From: Methyloglobulus sp.
Lineage (GTDB): Bacteria; Pseudomonadota; Gammaproteobacteria; Methylococcales; Methylomonadaceae
Assembly (NCBI GenBank): GCA_013140405.1
Contig: JABFSV010000253.1
Location: forward strand, 1-17,224
Reading direction: 5' to 3'
Length of the DNA: 17,224 nucleotides
The position numbers and the translations under genes are program-made. The notes beneath the pieces were generated by a model, which ran no database searches, was not told the DNA's origin, and saw nothing but the letters and a program-made list of their open reading frames with translations. Positions 2,457 through 10,512 of this stretch are shown piece after piece (the first letter of the stretch is position 1; each line of letters begins with the position of its first letter).

Positions 2457-2975
2457 ATGCGCGATAACCTGATTTTCAAAGCAGCATTCATTGCCGCCTT
2501 ATTCATGACATTGTCAACAACAGTTTTATCCCAAGGGGTCACTGTCGCCCCAGCACCGAACGGGATTGCTATCCCGAAAGATTACAAAACCTGGCAAGCT
2601 CTCGGCGTATCGCACCGGACAGATAAGGATTCGTTACGGATCATTCTAGCTAACCCGATTGCCTACAAAGCAGCGATGGACGGCCTTACCAACCCCTGGC
2701 CGGACGGCAGCATGATCGCCAAATTAGCATGGAAAGACAGCACCCATCCGCACTTTGCCACCGCAACCGTACCGGGCGAACTAACGCATGTCGAGTTTAT
2801 GATAAGGGACAGCAAGAAATTCACGGACACCAACGGCTGGGGCTATGCCCGATGGTTAGGCATGGAACAAAAACCTTACGGCAAAGATGCCGATTTTGCC
2901 CAGGAATGTTCGACGTGTCATTTACAAGCGAAAGACACGGGTTATGTGTTTACCCGGAAAGCGCCGTTGCCTTAG
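2457..2975 (+). CDS. Cytochrome P460 family protein, exported c-type haem
   Basis: Periplasmic haem protein of the cytochrome P460 family. Members oxidise hydroxylamine (with or without NO) to N2O or nitrite, or bind NO, and occur in ammonia oxidisers and methanotrophs. The 172-residue product starts with a Sec signal peptide (hydrophobic stretch about residues 6-24, cleavage likely near 25-26). The haem c motif CSTCH is at 151-155 near the C-terminus, as in the family. The core has PDGSMIAKLAWK at 82-93. One of its two Lys residues (89 or 93) could be the equivalent of the Lys that cross-links to haem in true P460, distinguishing it from cytochrome c'-beta; which one needs an alignment. A GAGG ribosome binding site lies 6 bases upstream of the ATG. 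It sits alone between direct repeats, not with an hao-type operon. Confidence 0.88.
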   Translation: MRDNLIFKAAFIAALFMTLSTTVLSQGVTVAPAPNGIAIPKDYKTWQALGVSHRTDKDSLRIILANPIAYKAAMDGLTNPWPDGSMIAKLAWKDSTHPHFATATVPGELTHVEFMIRDSKKFTDTNGWGYARWLGMEQKPYGKDADFAQECSTCHLQAKDTGYVFTRKAPLP

Positions 2976-3048
2976 TTTAGGCATAACCAAAAAAATTAAT
3001 CGGAGATGATGTGTTGAGGTTCGCAAGCACACCCCAACCTGCGAGCTG
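2958..3048. repeat. Direct repeat copy B (P460 3' end plus flank)
   Basis: Covers the last codons of the P460 gene and about 70 bases downstream. It matches 2242-2330 including the coding bases for KAPL. It includes a possible hairpin around GTGTTGAGGT and ACCCCAACCT. Because the coding portion is native to P460 (family proteins commonly end in a similar Pro-rich tail), this copy is probably the source and copy A the derivative. Confidence 0.75.
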
Positions 3049-3137
3049 ACCCTATTATTATGCTATTTTTCTTATTTAACGTTATGGCAATAATAAAAAC
3101 GATGTTTTTATAAAGTTCGTTCCTTAAAAATAAGACG

Positions 3138-3728
3138 ATGAAAAAACAAGAAATTATTAATTATATCCAAACTAACTGTGAGCTTGACATCTATTATAGG
3201 TATCTTATTGGGCAAACCGTTTGGTATTTTCAAAATTATGGCGAAGACTTTAGTACTGATTATGACGAGTTTAAAAAATTTATATCTATAAAACTTAACG
3301 TTCCTTTCAATAATATTGCAATAGTCGGTAGCGCGAAAACTAAGTATAGTTTTTCACCATCGAAGGAATTTAAAGAATTTGATGATAAATCAGATTTTGA
3401 TTTGGTTATTGTATCGAGAGATACATTCAAGAATATTTGGTCTGCATATAAAGCTATATCATTAGAAAGACATCTTGCTGGATACGGAAATAAATGCTCC
3501 AATGTTTTTAATGGTTTTGTAAGTATTAAAGATTCCGACCCGACATACGGCAATGGTGTTTTAGAGGAATGGCAACGAAAAGTAAGAACGTTCAAAGCTG
3601 AGCTCCAGCTAAAATTTAATATTCAACATGATATTAATTACCGAATTTATTCGGATTGGGAGTCTGTGCAATATTACCACGTTAAAGGAATTGCTAAACT
3701 AAAAGGTAAAATTAATGAAGCTAATTGA
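3138..3728 (+). CDS. Nucleotidyltransferase-fold protein, partner of DUF262 gene
   Basis: A 196-residue soluble protein of a family I know only as hypothetical. It has a pol-beta-type nucleotidyltransferase signature: AIVGSAKTKYSF with the Gly-Ser at 64-65, then, after a charged loop, SDFDLVIVS with paired acidic residues Asp86 and Asp88. A third acidic residue may lie in NYRIYSDWES near the C-terminus, giving a plausible metal site. No membrane segment or signal peptide is visible. Its last 14 bases overlap the start of the DUF262 gene, so the two are almost certainly one unit. Its composition is strikingly AT-rich compared with the repair and nif genes, suggesting horizontal transfer. It could be a toxin-like nucleotidylating enzyme, a nucleotide second-messenger synthase or a regulator; substrate unknown. 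Family fold call moderate, function open. Confidence 0.7.
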   Translation: MKKQEIINYIQTNCELDIYYRYLIGQTVWYFQNYGEDFSTDYDEFKKFISIKLNVPFNNIAIVGSAKTKYSFSPSKEFKEFDDKSDFDLVIVSRDTFKNIWSAYKAISLERHLAGYGNKCSNVFNGFVSIKDSDPTYGNGVLEEWQRKVRTFKAELQLKFNIQHDINYRIYSDWESVQYYHVKGIAKLKGKINEAN

Positions 3729-4791
3729 TTCGATAGATATACAACCACAAACCGTAAAGTGGCTTTACGACTTGAATGAAAAAGGCCTTTTGGTTGTTGA
3801 TAATTCCTTTCAGCGTAATTACGTATGGACGAAGAAAAATCAAGTACAGTTAATAGAGTCCATTTTAATGGGTTTTCCAATACCTGAAATTTATATCTGG
3901 AATACTGGAACAGATGAAAATTCAGGTGATACTTGTTATTCAATAGTTGATGGACAACAACGAACAGGGGCTATCTTTCAATATATTGCAAACAATTTCA
4001 AGTTAGAGGAGTCATCACTTTCGGAAAACAATAGTTGCTATTCAAGAATTAAAAATCGCTTTTTTAAAGATTTAGAAACTGATGATAAAAAAGCACTTTG
4101 GTCTTATATTTTCTCAGTAAGGTTAATACGAATTACCGTAAGCAGAGTAAACATAGTCAATATGTTTCTTAGGTTAAACAGTAATAACATGACGCTCAAT
4201 CCTCAAGAACTTAGAAATGCAGAGTTTCAAGGAGAGTTTATGCAGGTAGCAGCCAAGCTATCAGAACTACCTTTCTGGAGCGATAACGCGCTTTTTGGGA
4301 TAGCAGATATAAGAAGAATGCGTGATATTTCTTTTGTTAGCACGTTATTGGTATTTATGAAGCAAGGAATACAAGAGGATATTAGAAATACAAATTTAAA
4401 TACGATCTATGATCTTTACAATGATTGCTATCCATCAAAGGATGAAGATATTTCAAAATTTGAAGAAATTATCGGCATTATTAATAGTCTCATCGATGGA
4501 AACTCTGAGAGATCAAAAATTCTCAGAAGACAAGTACATTTATATAGTCTATTTACAGCAATTTTTGATTTAACAATGGATGGTAATAAAATTACGAAAG
4601 ATCAAGTTGAGAATTATAGAAATTTAATTGACAACTATGATAATGAAGAACTTCTAAAAAAATATTTCCCGGATATTATTGATGATATACATCTTTATAA
4701 ATCTTTTGCGAAAGAAGGTACACGAGATAAAGGAAACCGCCTTGGTAGACACAAAGCAATTAAGAATGTATTCACACATAAAAAGCCATAA
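3715..4791 (+). CDS. DUF262 (GmrSD N-terminal/ParB-like) domain protein
   Basis: A 358-residue DUF262 protein. DUF262 is a ParB/Srx-like NTP-binding fold found in GmrS, BrxU and many phage-defence proteins. Visible motifs are FQRNYVW (32-38), IPEIYIW (56-62) and the hallmark VDGQQRT (78-84), then FLRLNSNNMTLNPQELRNAEF around 151-171. The rest is helical. The C-terminal end has basic GNRLGRHKAIKNVF. There is no HNH nuclease domain of the DUF1524 type that GmrSD restriction enzymes carry, so if this is defence the effector is either this fold itself or the nucleotidyltransferase-like partner. The AAGG ribosome binding site lies inside the upstream gene and the frames overlap by 14 bases. It is as AT-rich as its partner. 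Domain identification is strong; role in defence is inferred. Confidence 0.88.
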   Translation: MKLIDSIDIQPQTVKWLYDLNEKGLLVVDNSFQRNYVWTKKNQVQLIESILMGFPIPEIYIWNTGTDENSGDTCYSIVDGQQRTGAIFQYIANNFKLEESSLSENNSCYSRIKNRFFKDLETDDKKALWSYIFSVRLIRITVSRVNIVNMFLRLNSNNMTLNPQELRNAEFQGEFMQVAAKLSELPFWSDNALFGIADIRRMRDISFVSTLLVFMKQGIQEDIRNTNLNTIYDLYNDCYPSKDEDISKFEEIIGIINSLIDGNSERSKILRRQVHLYSLFTAIFDLTMDGNKITKDQVENYRNLIDNYDNEELLKKYFPDIIDDIHLYKSFAKEGTRDKGNRLGRHKAIKNVFTHKKP

Positions 4792-4841
4792 CAATTAATT
4801 ACAACATCGCGTAGGCTCTTTTTGCCTGTGTAATATCCCAT

Positions 4842-4884
4842 GTTGGGCATATTGTAGGTTGGCGCTGACGTTAGGAAGCCCAAC
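4842..4884. repeat. Inverted-repeat element, GTTGGGC/GCCCAAC ends
   Basis: GTTGGGC at 4842-4848 pairs with GCCCAAC at 4878-4884 between the convergent DUF262 and PIN-toxin genes, where it may act as a two-way terminator. Its right part, from GTTGGCGCTGACG (4858) to GGAAGCCCAAC, recurs with few changes at 5633-5659 and, inverted and looser, in the nifD-nifK gap. It belongs to a short dispersed family. Confidence 0.5.
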
Positions 4885-4891
4885 AAACCCG

Positions 4892-5272
4892 TTAAACCAA
4901 AATCACCAATTCACTGTAATTGCTGAGCTGTTTGTCATGGGTCAGCAAGTGCATTGGCTCATGGATGGCCTGGGCAATGAGCATCCTGTCGAACGGGTCT
5001 TGGTGGTGCGGCGGTAACATTCCCAGCGCCAACAGATGGTTGGCATGGATGGGTAGTTGCTGGAAATTGTTTTCCGGCAACTGTTGGATAATGTCTTGTA
5101 GATTGGCGGTTAACTTTCCAGCCATCGCTTTAATTTGAATTTCCCAAAGGGACGCATGGCTTACGAAAATAGCATTATCCGGCGTTGATATTAACTGACG
5201 CGCGTTCTCAGGTAATTTGGTATCGTCACTTAGCCACCAAAGCATGATGTGGGTGTCAATCAGCAGTTTCAT
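4892..5272 (-). CDS. PIN-domain ribonuclease toxin (VapC family)
   Basis: A 126-residue PIN-domain protein, the toxin of a type II pair; PIN toxins cleave RNA using a cluster of acidic residues and Mg2+. Candidate active-site residues are Asp6 in LLIDTH, Glu44 in ASLWEI, Asp95 in DPFDRMLIAQA and Asp113 in THDKQL. LWWLSDD and the DPFDR block are typical of the subgroup paired with Phd-type antitoxins. The start at 5272 is chosen because its ATG overlaps the antitoxin stop as ATGA and the product begins MKLLIDTH, the usual N-terminus; a start 36 bases upstream would add an unrelated basic leader. Length is normal and no key residue is missing, so it is probably functional. Confidence 0.9.
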   Translation of the reverse strand: MKLLIDTHIMLWWLSDDTKLPENARQLISTPDNAIFVSHASLWEIQIKAMAGKLTANLQDIIQQLPENNFQQLPIHANHLLALGMLPPHHQDPFDRMLIAQAIHEPMHLLTHDKQLSNYSELVILV

Positions 5273-5532
5273 TGGCCTTCTTTTGGGAAGATGGGCGAGT
5301 CGTGCCATAACGCCAGTTCTGCATCGTCCATCGGCGCATCAAAATCATCTGCTAGCCAAATTTGGCCTTTCATGCCGCCTGGTGTGCGCGTCTTGCATTC
5401 ATTGGTCGCAAGCGGCACTAATCTAGCAACAGGTCTGCCCGCTTTGGCAATGATAATTTCTTCACCTTGTGCGGCTTCGTCCACCAATTTTGACAACTGG
5501 GTTTTTGCCTGATGTATGTTGATTTGGTACAT
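5269..5532 (-). CDS. Phd/YefM-family antitoxin
   Basis: An 87-residue antitoxin that would bind and inhibit the PIN toxin encoded next to it and bind operator DNA. The N-terminal half MYQINIHQAKTQLSKLVDEA, followed by GEEIIIAKAGRPVARLVPL, is the classic Phd/YefM fold. The C-terminal part contains PMDDAELALWHDSPIF, the acidic toxin-wrapping tail. A strong AAGGAGG ribosome binding site precedes the ATG. The stop TGA overlaps the toxin ATG (ATGA), so antitoxin and toxin are translationally coupled in the standard antitoxin-first order. Two tandem GACTAAGTT boxes lie directly upstream. Confidence 0.92.
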   Translation of the reverse strand: MYQINIHQAKTQLSKLVDEAAQGEEIIIAKAGRPVARLVPLATNECKTRTPGGMKGQIWLADDFDAPMDDAELALWHDSPIFPKEGQ

Positions 5533-5544
5533 GCCAACCTCCTT

Positions 5545-5563
5545 GACTAAGTTGGACTAAGTT
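5545..5563. promoter_or_regulatory. Tandem GACTAAGTT boxes, possible Phd operator
   Basis: GACTAAGTT occurs at 5545-5553 and again at 5555-5563, a 10-base step or one helical turn, just upstream of the antitoxin's ribosome binding site. Spaced same-face boxes are what a dimeric autorepressor could use. Function is inferred from position only. Confidence 0.35.
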
Positions 5564-5632
5564 TATCATGACGCATTACTCAATCAAGTCTATCTGTAAA
5601 ATTTTTATTCTGTCTGTTGGATTTTTTGAGTT

Positions 5633-5659
5633 GGCGCTGATGTAAGGAAGCCCAGCTTC
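5633..5659. repeat. Second copy of the 4858-4884 repeat
   Basis: GTTGGCGCTGATGTAAGGA leading into AGCCCAGC repeats 4858-4884 with about four differences. The left half of the inverted repeat is missing, so this looks like a decayed or partial copy. It lies between the two PIN toxin modules. Confidence 0.5.
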
Positions 5660-5672
5660 CCACTATAAGGAG

Positions 5673-6038
5673 CTAAAGTTGATAAGGCACTCTTACCCCA
5701 GGCTCATCCTGGGAAAAATCCTTCGTATTTCGGGTAACCAGTATGTGTTTATTGACTTGGGCGGTCGCCCATACGATGGCATCGGGCAATTTGATGCTGT
5801 GCTTTTTCCTTAGTTTTACCGCTGCTTCGCTAACTTGTGTTTCTATCGGCAAGGTATCGAATGTGTGTAAAAACGCCCTGATGATCGCTTCTGTTTCCGG
5901 CGTTGCGCCGACCATGACTTCCATCCAGGTAATGACGCTAATGGCCTTGTCGCGGTAACGCTCCAGTTCGTTTTTAGCTTGTTCCACGCCATTGAGGTAG
6001 TCGATGAGTATATTGGTATCGAACAGGGCGCTTACCAT
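5673..6038 (-). CDS. PIN-domain ribonuclease toxin (VapC family)
   Basis: A second, distinct PIN-domain toxin of 121 residues. Candidate catalytic acids are Asp7 in LFDTNILIDYL, Glu40 in TWMEVMVG, Asp86 in KLPDAIVWATA and Asp107 in TRNTKDF; the order and spacing fit the family. Its start overlaps the antitoxin stop by 7 bases (ATGGTAA), so the frame and start are well supported. It is closer to PIN toxins paired with CopG/RHH antitoxins than to the Phd-linked PIN toxin next door, so the two modules were probably acquired separately and not duplicated in place. Confidence 0.92.
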   Translation of the reverse strand: MVSALFDTNILIDYLNGVEQAKNELERYRDKAISVITWMEVMVGATPETEAIIRAFLHTFDTLPIETQVSEAAVKLRKKHSIKLPDAIVWATAQVNKHILVTRNTKDFSQDEPGVRVPYQL

Positions 6039-6288: not shown

Positions 6289-6414
6289 TTCTAAATCGGA
6301 TCAATTTAGTGAATCGATGTAACTGTGCAAAAAATTTACCCTTTTCCATAATTACCTTATTTATTAGGCTTTGTGAAGCATTAAGTTTCCGTTCGCCTTT
6401 ATGCCCTTGGGTAT

Positions 6415-6453
6415 TGAGCCTGTCGAAAGGCGGTGTGTGCTTCGACAAGCTCA
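6415..6453. repeat. REP-like hairpin element
   Basis: TGAGCCTGTCGAA (6415-6427) pairs with TTCGACAAGCTCA (6441-6453), one mismatch in 13. The continuation GCACGAACGG is typical of the widespread GTTCGTGCTGAGC / TTGTCGAAG repeat found between genes in many proteobacteria. It lies at the left border of the radical SAM remnant. Confidence 0.6.
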
Positions 6454-6484
6454 GCACGAACGGTTCAAAGATTAAAAGGCCGAA

Positions 6485-8492: not shown

Positions 8493-9731
8493 TTACTTCT
8501 TAAGCTGTCTTGAAAGCAGCAATAAAGGATGCTCAACCTTAATGCCTTCGTCAGCTAGAAAGAGCACACAACCGAAATTGCTGCTAACAACCACATCAAC
8601 GTGTGCTGCGGTAATGGTTTGCTGTTTCAACGTCTTTAACTGTGCAGCATTTTCAGGATGGGTCAACATATAGCTGCCGCCCGAACCACAACAGATATGA
8701 TTATCTTCCAATGGAACTAAGCTAATACCAGGGAATTTTTGCAACAGCACATAAACACCTTGCTGATTTTTTAGCACGTTGCGCTGGCTACAGGGCTCAT
8801 GTATGGCTACTTTCAAATTGGATGGCTTTAATTGCAAATCATCCGGCCAATGTTTTAGCAAAAAGTCGTTAATGTCAGACAAACGCCCACTGAACAACCT
8901 CCCTGCTTCGTTGTTGTTTCGGTTAGATTCGCTCAACATTGCCCCGCAACCGCTGGCGGTATAAAGCACCGCGTCAACATCCAACGCATTGAAGATTTTG
9001 ATGTTGTTATTGATAAGATCTTCGGCGGACTTGCCACTGTGTTGGTGAATCGCGCCGCAACAGCCTTGCTGAGGCGGCACAAGTACCTCGAAGCCTATGA
9101 CATTTAACAGCTTAATCGCCGCCAGTAAGGTCTCTCTGTCAAAGTGTTCGACAATACAACCAGTGAACAATGCAACCCGTCCACGTTTGGTGATAGAGCT
9201 TGGGTAGAAACCGGCCAATGGGGTTAAAGCCGGTGTTCTGACAAGCGATTCAGCGTCAGCCAAGCGCAATTTATTCAGTAACCCGCTACGCCGAAGTGGT
9301 TGTTGTAAACCCGATTTCAAATAAGCAGCAAGCAATGGCATTAGCCTACTTCGCCACTGCTTATTTTCTATTAGCCAAAATGCCAGTTTTGCCAACCAAA
9401 TCGGCTTATTGCTTATCTGGGCTTGAGCATCATCGAACAATTGCCCGTAAGCCATCTTGCTTGGGCAAACCGTCTCACAGGCACGGCATTGCAGGCAGTT
9501 ATCCAGATGTAAGCGTTCTTCGTCACTTACGGGTAACTTCTCTACCAGGATTTTGCTGATGGTACGGATACGTCTGCGCGGGGTTTCTTCACCAGTCTGG
9601 AACAAACGGAACGTCGGGCAACTGCTGATGCACATGCCGCAGCGCATACACTCGCCGGCATCAGGAATATATGGCTCGGAGTCAGTTTGCCCTTCGGGTT
9701 CAGTGACATCCATGTCCATAGTTTCAAACAC
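8493..9731 (-). CDS. glcF: Glycolate oxidase iron-sulfur subunit-like (GlcF) protein
   Basis: A 412-residue electron-transfer protein. Two ferredoxin-type clusters are visible: CMRCGMCISSCP (Cys 28, 31, 34, 38) and CLQCRACETVCP (Cys 79, 82, 85, 89). Two CCG domains follow, with GCCGAIHQHSGK near 223 and CCGSGGSYM near 348. This order and length are those of GlcF, the Fe-S subunit of glycolate dehydrogenase, though the same architecture occurs in LutA/HdrD-like proteins. The flavin subunits GlcD and GlcE are not in the window. I chose the GTG start at 9731 because GGAG lies 7 bases upstream; in-frame ATGs four and six codons later have no such site. It starts one base after the 147-aa gene ends, so the two are co-translated. 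Confidence 0.85.
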   Translation of the reverse strand: MFETMDMDVTEPEGQTDSEPYIPDAGECMRCGMCISSCPTFRLFQTGEETPRRRIRTISKILVEKLPVSDEERLHLDNCLQCRACETVCPSKMAYGQLFDDAQAQISNKPIWLAKLAFWLIENKQWRSRLMPLLAAYLKSGLQQPLRRSGLLNKLRLADAESLVRTPALTPLAGFYPSSITKRGRVALFTGCIVEHFDRETLLAAIKLLNVIGFEVLVPPQQGCCGAIHQHSGKSAEDLINNNIKIFNALDVDAVLYTASGCGAMLSESNRNNNEAGRLFSGRLSDINDFLLKHWPDDLQLKPSNLKVAIHEPCSQRNVLKNQQGVYVLLQKFPGISLVPLEDNHICCGSGGSYMLTHPENAAQLKTLKQQTITAAHVDVVVSSNFGCVLFLADEGIKVEHPLLLLSRQLKK

Positions 9732-9732
9732 G

Positions 9733-10176
9733 TCAGGACTCCATCACCTTGACATAAGCATGCCGTAGCAATTCCATTTCGGCTGGCGGTCTATTACGCA
9801 ATTCCGGCAATGTCCTCATTCGGCAATCCCTGCTTTGCATCAGCTTATGTGGCGGATCCAGTAACATGAAGCGCACCATGTAAACCGTAATGATTCCATC
9901 CGGGGTGTCCATTTGTTCGCTAAAGCCCGCTTCAGCTTTTAGTAAATCATTATCTAGGCTTAATAGCTGATTGATATTATTAACCAGCATGGCTGGATGC
10001 AAACTCACTTTAGTCTCTTCAAATTCTTCCTGTTCCAAGGCACTGGATAACCCCGGTAATGGCTCAGGAAAACAAATGCTCCCGTTACTGTGTTGGGCAA
10101 ATAAGGTCAACGCGCTGATGTCGCCCTTGTAGTAGAGCAGCAGACGGTGTTTGGCAAAAGCGCTTTGTGGACTCAT
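9733..10176 (-). CDS. Conserved-looking protein of unknown function upstream of glcF
   Basis: I do not recognise this 147-residue protein. It has no signal peptide, membrane segment or Cys cluster. The middle reads as mixed alpha/beta with a long acidic stretch (about 45-95). The C-terminal third, with FMLLDPPHKL and then RTLPELRNRPPAEMELLRHA, is regular and probably helical. The start at 10176 is the first ATG after an in-frame stop; there is no strong ribosome binding site. Its stop is one base before the GTG of the GlcF-like gene, so a shared operon and possibly a shared complex is likely. About 120 bases with two hairpins separate it from nif11 upstream. Confidence 0.7.
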   Translation of the reverse strand: MSPQSAFAKHRLLLYYKGDISALTLFAQHSNGSICFPEPLPGLSSALEQEEFEETKVSLHPAMLVNNINQLLSLDNDLLKAEAGFSEQMDTPDGIITVYMVRFMLLDPPHKLMQSRDCRMRTLPELRNRPPAEMELLRHAYVKVMES

Positions 10177-10205
10177 CAGCTTTTAATGTATTTGTGGTTT
10201 TTATA

Positions 10206-10236
10206 ATGGCGGAGATAATGTTACAAAATCCGCCAT
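10206..10236. terminator. Hairpin between nif11 and the glcF operon
   Basis: ATGGCGGA (10206-10213) and TCCGCCAT (10229-10236) form a perfect 8-bp stem with a 15-base loop, downstream of nif11 in the transcribed direction. There is no uridine tract right after it, so it is at best a weak or factor-dependent terminator, or an mRNA 3'-end stabiliser. Confidence 0.4.
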
Positions 10237-10257
10237 CAAGAAGCCGATTAAGACCTA

Positions 10258-10281
10258 CTGCTTATTATGACTTCTAAGCAG
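10258..10281. terminator. Second hairpin just after nif11
   Basis: CTGCTTA (10258-10264) and TAAGCAG (10275-10281), a perfect 7-bp stem with a 10-base loop, begins about a dozen bases after the nif11 stop. Together with the stem at 10206-10236 it suggests this gap marks the end of the nif transcript or a processing point. Confidence 0.35.
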
Positions 10282-10293
10282 AACCTTATACAT

Positions 10294-10512
10294 TTAAACC
10301 CTCAGCAACGCCTTGGCCATTTTTTCTGACAGCTGCGCTTCGACAAATTGCGGTTCGTTGGGTGGATAAAGTTCTACCTCATCCAGTTCAAAGTTATATT
10401 CTTTGCCCAAAGCAATTAACTCCCTGATTTTTTGAACGCCCAACAGTTTCTCTTTTAATTCAGGGTCTGCTTTGGCTTGCTCAGAAAATGCTTTTATTTG
10501 TGCAATTGACAT
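10294..10512 (-). CDS. Nif11 domain protein
   Basis: A 72-residue Nif11-family protein. MSIAQIKAFSEQAKADPELKEKL and the following helix IRELIALGKEYNFELD match the helical Nif11 domain. That domain is found in small proteins of nitrogen-fixing bacteria and as leader regions of some RiPP precursors; its biochemical role is not established. No double-Gly leader cleavage site or Cys-rich core follows the domain and no maturation enzyme is nearby, so the nif-associated form, not a peptide precursor, is the better reading. The start at 10512 is supported by AGGAG upstream; a frame extending to 10548 would add a short basic leader without a ribosome binding site. It is the last of the nif-type genes in the block. 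Confidence 0.85.
   Translation of the reverse strand: MSIAQIKAFSEQAKADPELKEKLLGVQKIRELIALGKEYNFELDEVELYPPNEPQFVEAQLSEKMAKALLRV

Follow-up and report, generated by a model that had tools for sequence, protein, structure and literature searches.

In a 17,224-nucleotide stretch of DNA from Methyloglobulus sp. (hereafter the window, at its full length; GenBank assembly GCA_013140405.1, contig JABFSV010000253.1), two overlapping genes encode a nucleotidyltransferase-like protein (gene 1) and a short DUF262 protein (gene 2). The two are a real unit, in which both families strictly co-occur. Tentatively, and with slightly less than even confidence, we propose that this pair is a mobile two-gene antiphage module in which the DUF262 protein senses DNA modification and licenses a toxic nucleotidyltransferase; we infer both the phage resistance and the direction from sensor to effector. 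Beyond the initial annotation of the window, which had suggested a two-gene candidate defence system, we find a form of the pair linked to a methyltransferase gene, and RelA/SpoT-like or HEPN-like partners in neighbouring DUF262 lineages.

Gene structure and linkage

Gene 1 is an open reading frame (ORF) of 196 aa and gene 2 one of 358 aa; both start with ATG. Their features are as follows.

3138 to 3728, plus strand: gene 1, nucleotidyltransferase-superfamily protein, predicted effector (ORF; homologues; invariant GS...SDxD; PF01909 profile match; AlphaFold2 model)
3327 to 3332, plus strand: Gly64-Ser65 of the GS motif of gene 1 (alignment)
3393 to 3401, plus strand: Asp86-x-Asp88 of the DxD motif of gene 1 (alignment)
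3715 to 4791, plus strand: gene 2, short HNH-less DUF262 (GmrSD_N) protein, predicted modification sensor/NTPase (PF03235; PADLOC; alignment; AlphaFold2)
3946 to 3966, plus strand: VDGQQRT motif of DUF262, residues 78-84 of gene 2 (alignment)
3715 to 3728, plus strand: 14-nt overlap of genes 1 and 2 (ORF coordinates)

Frames of 196 and 358 aa are not the product of chance: when the region was shuffled 300 times base by base, no frame free of stops ran beyond 174 codons (mean 78). Most nucleotide differences between either gene and those of four relatives fall on third codon positions, implying that both are conserved as proteins (nonsynonymous divergence, dN, 0.13-0.25; synonymous divergence, dS, was saturated and not computable in six of the eight comparisons with the window). 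The description of two AT-rich genes sharing 14 bases was accurate: GC content is 0.308 for gene 1 and 0.317 for gene 2, against 0.446 for the window.

A gene-1 profile found 33 loci in a set of one-per-species genomes, together with 11 viral loci, and a DUF262 gene lies directly downstream in 33/33 and 11/11 of these, respectively (43/44 by hidden Markov model, HMM). The contig of locus L029 ends inside the DUF262 gene, whose start was detected by tblastn; L009 is also cut by a contig end, and L033 and L034 hold divergent or irregular pairs. The same order is found in plasmid copies from Pseudoalteromonas (L041) and Cronobacter dublinensis (L199) and, by annotation, in the three of 5426 E. 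coli genomes that carry L036-type DNA. Searching with DUF262 gave a compatible picture. Of 45 viral DUF262 loci, gene 1 precedes DUF262 in the 10 that scored best and in none of the remaining 35; seven of those 10 contigs were known from the gene-1 search and three were new, and four viral contigs with gene 1 (L075-L078) were missed by the DUF262 scan. Among 274 genomes, 19 contain a total of 20 DUF262 matches, with gene 1 present at two, the window and G308. The 14-nt overlap is exact in 14 of the 34 pairs measured, including the window, and the pairwise identities of gene 1 and gene 2 correlate (Spearman 0.92 over 34 loci; 0.75 without L019-L034). No fusion of the two genes was seen among the best 120 of 2644 DUF262 matches (lengths 346-372 aa). 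The co-occurrence expected of a two-gene unit therefore holds across genomes. As a separate observation, the gene-1 family has a second two-gene pairing: at L050:1408-2734 (genome G082) and at L049:5247-6501 (Aliarcobacter plasmid pM830MA), a divergent relative of gene 1 shares 14 nt with a short gene for a peptidoglycan transglycosylase (PF00912) in place of DUF262.

The two proteins

Above cut-off, gene 1 has no match among the families of Pfam, NCBIfam or PADLOC. Of 157 candidates from a large protein set, 125 were homologues at E<=1e-3; "nucleotidyltransferase" occurs in the names of 3 of 120 relatives among the matches listed, and of 3 of 120 in another list. At E<=1 there was a single sub-threshold Pfam match (DUF6881, E 0.089), none to PF01909 and none in NCBIfam or PADLOC. 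PHROGs returned phrog_32008, a family of unknown function (E 4e-10), plus one chance-level match. Searching PDB sequences with either gene yielded nothing relevant and, for gene 1, no relative. Phage-record searches with gene 1 and two relatives gave no match; a viral scan with the gene 1 sequence alone found no relative, whereas profile scans did find viral relatives.

Nevertheless, the conserved residues and the order of elements in the predicted structure point to a nucleotidyltransferase. The initial annotation had recognized a nucleotidyltransferase signature at Gly64-Ser65, Asp86 and Asp88; all four residues, along with 34 other positions, are invariant in a 30-member alignment that includes the window (mean column identity 57%). 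In 26 more diverse members the invariant positions are G64, S65, K67, S71, P74, F81, S85, D86, D88, S93, W101, F124, W145, R169, Y171 and Y180, and the pattern GS...[ST]DxD is present in all 51 distinct gene-1-like frames in the loci searched. In an AlphaFold2 (AF2) model with a predicted local distance difference score (pLDDT) of 93.2, a strand at residues 60-63 leads into G64-S65, while D86 stands immediately before, and D88 within, a strand at 87-92. This order of G-S and D-x-D relative to the strands is that of the nucleotidyltransferase core. The spacing from GS to DxD is 20 residues. Comparing the gene-1 profile by hhalign with 17 PF01909 proteins gave P 3.4e-5 (probability 72%), aligned over GS...SDxD, although these proteins were chosen from 30 loci by a GS...D.[DE] pattern, a choice that favours them in the comparison. 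A wider gene-1 alignment gave P 6.5e-5 (probability 64%), and all 13 controls (one reversed, ten column-shuffled, DUF262 and the HEPN-like partners described below) gave P>=0.17. Profile comparison and the order of elements in the model thus support the predicted placement of gene 1 in the nucleotidyltransferase (pol-beta) superfamily, as initially suggested.

The sole Pfam match of gene 2 above the cut-off is PF03235 (GmrSD_N, E 7.6e-26); in PADLOC, NsnA ranks first (E 1.3e-40), followed by PD-T4-2_A (E 2.5e-19). Across 25 aligned members (mean column identity 49%, in a set different from that used for gene 1), the conserved positions are Q33-R34, W38, DGQQR, R153-L-N, QE.RN and the C-terminal G335...R342..R345. 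VDGQQRT is present as reported, and a Pfam scan and motif check found neither an HNH/DUF1524 domain, likewise as reported, nor a [DE]HxxP motif. The AF2 model of gene 2 is less certain (mean pLDDT 84.6; predicted template modelling score, pTM, 0.55).

Other partners in neighbouring DUF262 lineages

Seven DUF262 proteins score at least 149 bits against the pair's profile and lack gene 1, and all of them have another partner downstream. In six of the seven (L089-L092, L094 and L057/L125) this is a HEPN-like protein, about 210 aa long, whose invariant RNxxAH agrees with the published HEPN motif Rx4-6H (PMC3710099). The seventh (L055/L124) has a RelA_SpoT partner (PF04607, E 5.8e-10). Below 149 bits, partners were checked in L126 and L127, which were viewed, and by HMM for the HEPN-like protein.

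RelA-like relatives occur in six plasmid records, three of which were opened: two have an adjoining DUF262 gene and one does not. On a plasmid of Rhizobium sp. 007 the RelA/SpoT-like gene overlaps the DUF262 gene, and a convergent N-6 DNA methylase gene comes next; on a tumour-inducing Rhizobium plasmid, a BsuBI/PstI restriction endonuclease gene and the DUF262 gene are followed by the RelA-like gene, with a transposase gene in between. The DUF262 and RelA/SpoT-like pairs at L124:2115-4141 and L196:2911-4972 may be a separate two-gene system. A further kind of partner is known from PtuXYZ, which consists of a DUF262 protein, an ATPase and a PIN/BECR RNase (PMC11980606).

The relationships of the DUF262 proteins were examined in two trees, built by quick searches with midpoint rooting and with support from the Shimodaira-Hasegawa-like approximate likelihood ratio test (SH-aLRT) only. 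The first included DUF262s of at least 74 bits and at least 140 residues. For the second, nine 'other' loci were dropped by identifier (second copies of L132, L133, L134, L137 and L139 stayed), seven near-duplicate nucleotidyltransferase-linked rows were dropped and three plasmid rows added. HEPN-linked DUF262s form one group (SH-aLRT 97-98%), as do RelA-linked ones (100%), and together with the nucleotidyltransferase-linked DUF262s they stand apart from other DUF262s (82-92%). The nucleotidyltransferase-linked DUF262s need two label changes in both trees, which is compatible with either a single or a multiple origin of the pairing.

A methyltransferase-linked form

In the METHYLTRANSFERASE-linked form, a C5-cytosine methyltransferase gene directly precedes gene 1. 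This is the arrangement in 13/13 loci of one subclade, mostly from gut Bacillota (L019-L031; by title, eleven Bacillota, one Synergistes and one unclassified), and in viral contig L074. The enzyme was identified by PF00145 scans of L030 (E 1.1e-50) and L019, and the other methyltransferases are 49-87% identical to the L030 protein. L018, an unclassified record, has the pair without the methyltransferase. In six of the 13 loci (L024 and L026-L030) an EcoO109I-type gene lies just upstream of the methyltransferase, four copies being complete and two cut by a contig end; this assignment comes from a PF14511 scan of L030 only. By inspection, another cytosine methyltransferase-like ORF precedes the EcoO109I-type endonuclease gene in L030. 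A comparable association has been reported for HEPN MAE_28990 genes, which occur in an operon with ParB and DNA methylase genes (PMC3710099).

A mobile cassette

The window is part of a 3.39-Mb draft genome (G000:C107), in which the direct neighbours of the pair are a P460 cytochrome gene and a reverse-strand PIN/Phd toxin-antitoxin (TA) module. A Pfam scan bore out the three TA modules noted initially among repeats around the pair: PemK/MazF-like (with a weak ribbon-helix-helix, RHH, partner, E 0.03), Phd+PIN and RHH+PIN.

3048 to 4834, no strand: inserted cassette, probable extent (two same-genus genomes keep both flanks with another gene between)
2958 to 3047, no strand: left flanking repeat, 80% identical to 2242-2329 (homology to G018 and G121 stops at 3047)
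4835 to 4889, no strand: right flanking dispersed repeat (more copies in relatives)

The pair is a sporadic, AT-rich, horizontally mobile cassette at a variable site between dispersed repeats. The gene-1 family was found in 2 of 151 genomes of the taxonomic family (that of the window and one of the transglycosylase type) and in 2 of 369 genomes of the class (that of the window and G308). Of the eight same-genus genomes searched, two (G018 and G121) preserve the left and right flanks together on a single contig: the P460 gene and repeat up to window position 3047, and the PIN/RHH TA module from 5630-5674 on. The interval between these, as far as a copy of the right-hand repeat, contains a PEP-CTERM-like ORF in G018 and a 304-aa ORF in G121 (named by inspection), and this suggests that the cassette extends over approximately 3048-4834. 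The window's Phd/PIN pair is replaced or missing in both genomes. The site between the P460 gene and the PIN/RHH module (L189 and L190, corresponding to window 3048-5630) holds differing cargo between dispersed repeats. Another dispersed repeat, at window 6357-6460, occurs many times in G000 and in G099, a genome of the same genus, and nitrogenase-like genes were seen by inspection at the far end of the window.

Elsewhere the pair occupies mobile and partly defence-type settings, a description that our observations support. One copy is on a 6.2-kb plasmid. In E. coli ETEC1738 the pair is inside a prophage, about 5 kb before the antiterminator Q gene. In the P2-like element L039 it lies between the gpA replication gene (PF05840) and the portal gene (PF04860), and L040 likewise has portal and terminase genes downstream; the P2 gpA-gpQ/cos-proximal site is a known hotspot of anti-phage systems (PMC9122126). 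We scanned 103 neighbouring ORFs of 22 loci for defence genes (L019-L034, L001, L007 and L036 were left out), and ten proteins were also scanned singly, nine of them neighbours or near neighbours in the 22 loci and one farther out in L016. Named systems lie directly beside the pair in two of the 22: Olokun OloA/OloB in L011 and the DRT reverse transcriptase RT_UG19 in L015. Matches to GajB-like, PDC-S06 and PDC-S20 families were found somewhere among the neighbouring ORFs. These are observed counts with no control neighbourhoods, so that the defence-island setting proposed for the pair has anecdotal backing, and we claim no enrichment. About 0.5 kb beyond the pair on its downstream side, viral contig L035 encodes a KAP-family P-loop NTPase (8624-10363).

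Relation to known systems

We compared the pair with the systems that it most resembles. PD-T4-2 combines DUF262 with HEPN (PMC10952713) and is similar in having two genes and a short DUF262 protein without DUF1524, and the HEPN-linked DUF262s are near that of the pair in our trees; membership was rejected because gene 1 matches neither HEPN nor PADLOC profiles, and hhalign against the HEPN-like partners gave P 0.17. Nor do the HEPN-like sister loci match the second PD-T4-2 component. The best PADLOC match of gene 2, NsnA, is the DUF262 subunit of NsnABC, which we take to be Menshen, ptuXYZ presumably being the same operon; here membership was rejected because no NsnB ATPase or NsnC is beside the pair. 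NsnB-profile matches in the genome are on other contigs only, and the NsnC profile, although without a match in the genome, was also silent in every control genome, so that this search proves little. GmrSD, BrxU and SspE (DUF262 plus DUF1524) share the DUF262 domain and DGQQR with gene 2, but the absence of DUF1524/HNH and the nucleotidyltransferase-like partner exclude the pair from the GmrSD family of type IV restriction.

From the side of gene 1, the HEPN-MNT (HepT/MntA; MNT, minimal nucleotidyltransferase) TA systems offer distant kinship to MNT, a 5' position, a two-gene unit and GS plus DxD. However, MNTs have approximately 80-150 aa (PMC7641770) against the 196 of gene 1, the GS-DxD gap is 10 rather than 20 residues, and the partner in our pair is DUF262; membership was rejected for want of a PF01909 match at E<=1 and of a HEPN gene, and on the spacing. 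MenT and AbiEii toxins share the nucleotidyltransferase superfamily and a toxin-like setting with gene 1, which nevertheless has no match to their Pfam family at E<=1, and no counterpart could be assigned to the Lys and second Asp needed in MenT1. We found no description of the gene-1/DUF262 pair in the open literature as far as its text was accessible; swaps of a similar kind could be covered by work on the domain polymorphism of Menshen that PMC12839542 cites. We would class the pair as a variant, with a nucleotidyltransferase-like partner, of the defence systems built on DUF262 (GmrSD, PD-T4-2, Menshen).

A possible mechanism and its alternatives

In the mechanism that we tentatively favour, gene 2 would be the sensor, binding nucleoside triphosphates (NTPs) via its DGQQR pocket and detecting how DNA is modified (in the methyltransferase-linked forms, whether cytosine is methylated or not). 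On encountering foreign DNA, it would license gene 1 which, via GS...DxD, would transfer one or more nucleotides to a component of the host, with tRNA or some other part of the translation machinery as the likeliest target, and growth would stop before phage maturation. There is a precedent in SspE, whose DUF262 NTPase is triggered when modified DNA is recognized, and a related cycle has been proposed for BrxU (PMC10952713). Because DUF262 is constant while RNase-like, RelA/SpoT-like and nucleotidyltransferase-like partners alternate, often with DNA methylases nearby, the economical reading is that DUF262 is the sensor and the partner the effector. With less assurance, we consider it possible that short HNH-less DUF262s are general modification-state sensors, often accompanied by a DNA methyltransferase of their own, and that the effectors they license can be exchanged and act mostly on RNA or nucleotides; the window pair would then be the nucleotidyltransferase branch, with RelA/SpoT-like, HEPN-like and BECR effectors in sister systems.

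Several observations weigh against this mechanism. No Asp or Glu after D88 is invariant among the 26 diverse gene-1 members, leaving no conserved third catalytic carboxylate, and gene 1 could therefore be inactive or, like MntA, a regulator; in MNT-HEPN pairs, the 5' nucleotidyltransferase is indeed the antitoxin (PMC3710099). The partner slots differ in position, gene 1 being 5' of DUF262 and the HEPN-like and RelA-like partners 3'. Pfam support for the HEPN-like partners is weak (best E 0.022) and they have no PADLOC match at E<=0.01. More distant RelA-like relatives, on Limnohabitans plasmid L198 and in L195 of G194, have no DUF262 in the stretch examined (a 3.5-kb locus in G194). The two gene-1 relatives with a transglycosylase partner, from G082 and the Aliarcobacter plasmid, have no DUF262 nearby. 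A search of 141 loci at E<=1e-8, in which L085, a second copy of the L074 contig, also matched, found no L030-type methyltransferase beside the pair outside L019-L031 and L074, the window included. Finally, named defence genes occur in few neighbourhoods, and PADLOC matches among the 103 neighbouring proteins amounted to one protein per family for each of the 25 listed of 86 families.

The main competing explanation, which we regard as unlikely but worth taking seriously, is a TA module whose effector would be DUF262, an NTPase or a toxin that nicks DNA, and whose antitoxin would be gene 1, modifying and silencing gene 2 as an adenylyltransferase of the MntA type. Gene 1 comes first, the position that MNT takes in nearly all MNT-HEPN dyads (PMC3710099), and the locus is among TA modules. 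MntA uses its AMP-transfer motif, GSX10DXD, to adenylylate and silence its toxin (PMC7641770), and gene 1 has GS and DxD without a conserved third acid; its spacing, however, is 20 residues and not 10. The HEPN-like, RelA-like or BECR partners of sister DUF262s suggest an effector slot rather than an antidote slot, and in the accessible parts of the literature we found no report of a short DUF262 protein that is toxic alone.

Compared with licensing of gene 1 by DUF262, it is decidedly improbable that the pair acts by nuclease-type restriction, with a ParB/Srx-like DUF262 nicking modified or unmodified DNA and gene 1, as an accessory, regulating or priming it. Nicking of single-stranded DNA is reported for ParB/Srx proteins (PMC12839542), a nuclease function has been suggested for PtuX (PMC11980606), and methyltransferases and, in six loci, the EcoO109I-type gene are beside the pair. 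But gene 2 lacks an HNH domain and a [DE]HxxP motif, and gene 1 is conserved at least as well as gene 2 (57% versus 49% mean column identity, in different sets). Just as improbable in our judgement is that the pair has no part in defence and is a selfish cassette or host-regulation device on mobile elements: close copies are rare (the three in 5426 E. coli genomes) and the window pair lies among TA cassettes and repeats, whereas the P2-hotspot position, the methyltransferase association and two neighbourhoods with known defence genes speak for defence. We think it very unlikely that gene 1 makes a nucleotide second messenger sensed by gene 2 or another protein since, its superfamily notwithstanding, it matches no CBASS-type family of Pfam, NCBIfam or PADLOC and lacks a conserved third acid.

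Overall, the initial interpretation is partly supported: the nucleotidyltransferase assignment, the co-occurrence and the mobile, partly defence-type setting stand, while the defence function and the roles of sensor and actor are what we still infer. The pair couples DUF262, a known sensor domain, with a nucleotidyltransferase-like partner that is unclassified, where neighbouring DUF262 lineages carry RelA/SpoT-like and HEPN-like ones, and a small multi-phylum family that has been outside the Pfam, NCBIfam and PADLOC families above cut-off would gain a candidate function. The methyltransferase-linked operons pose the question of whether methylation of self DNA keeps DUF262 from switching on a toxin that leaves DNA untouched. 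Were short HNH-less DUF262s general sensors of the kind considered above, they would provide an immunity guided by modification, in which the cell is killed or stalled and DNA is left uncut.

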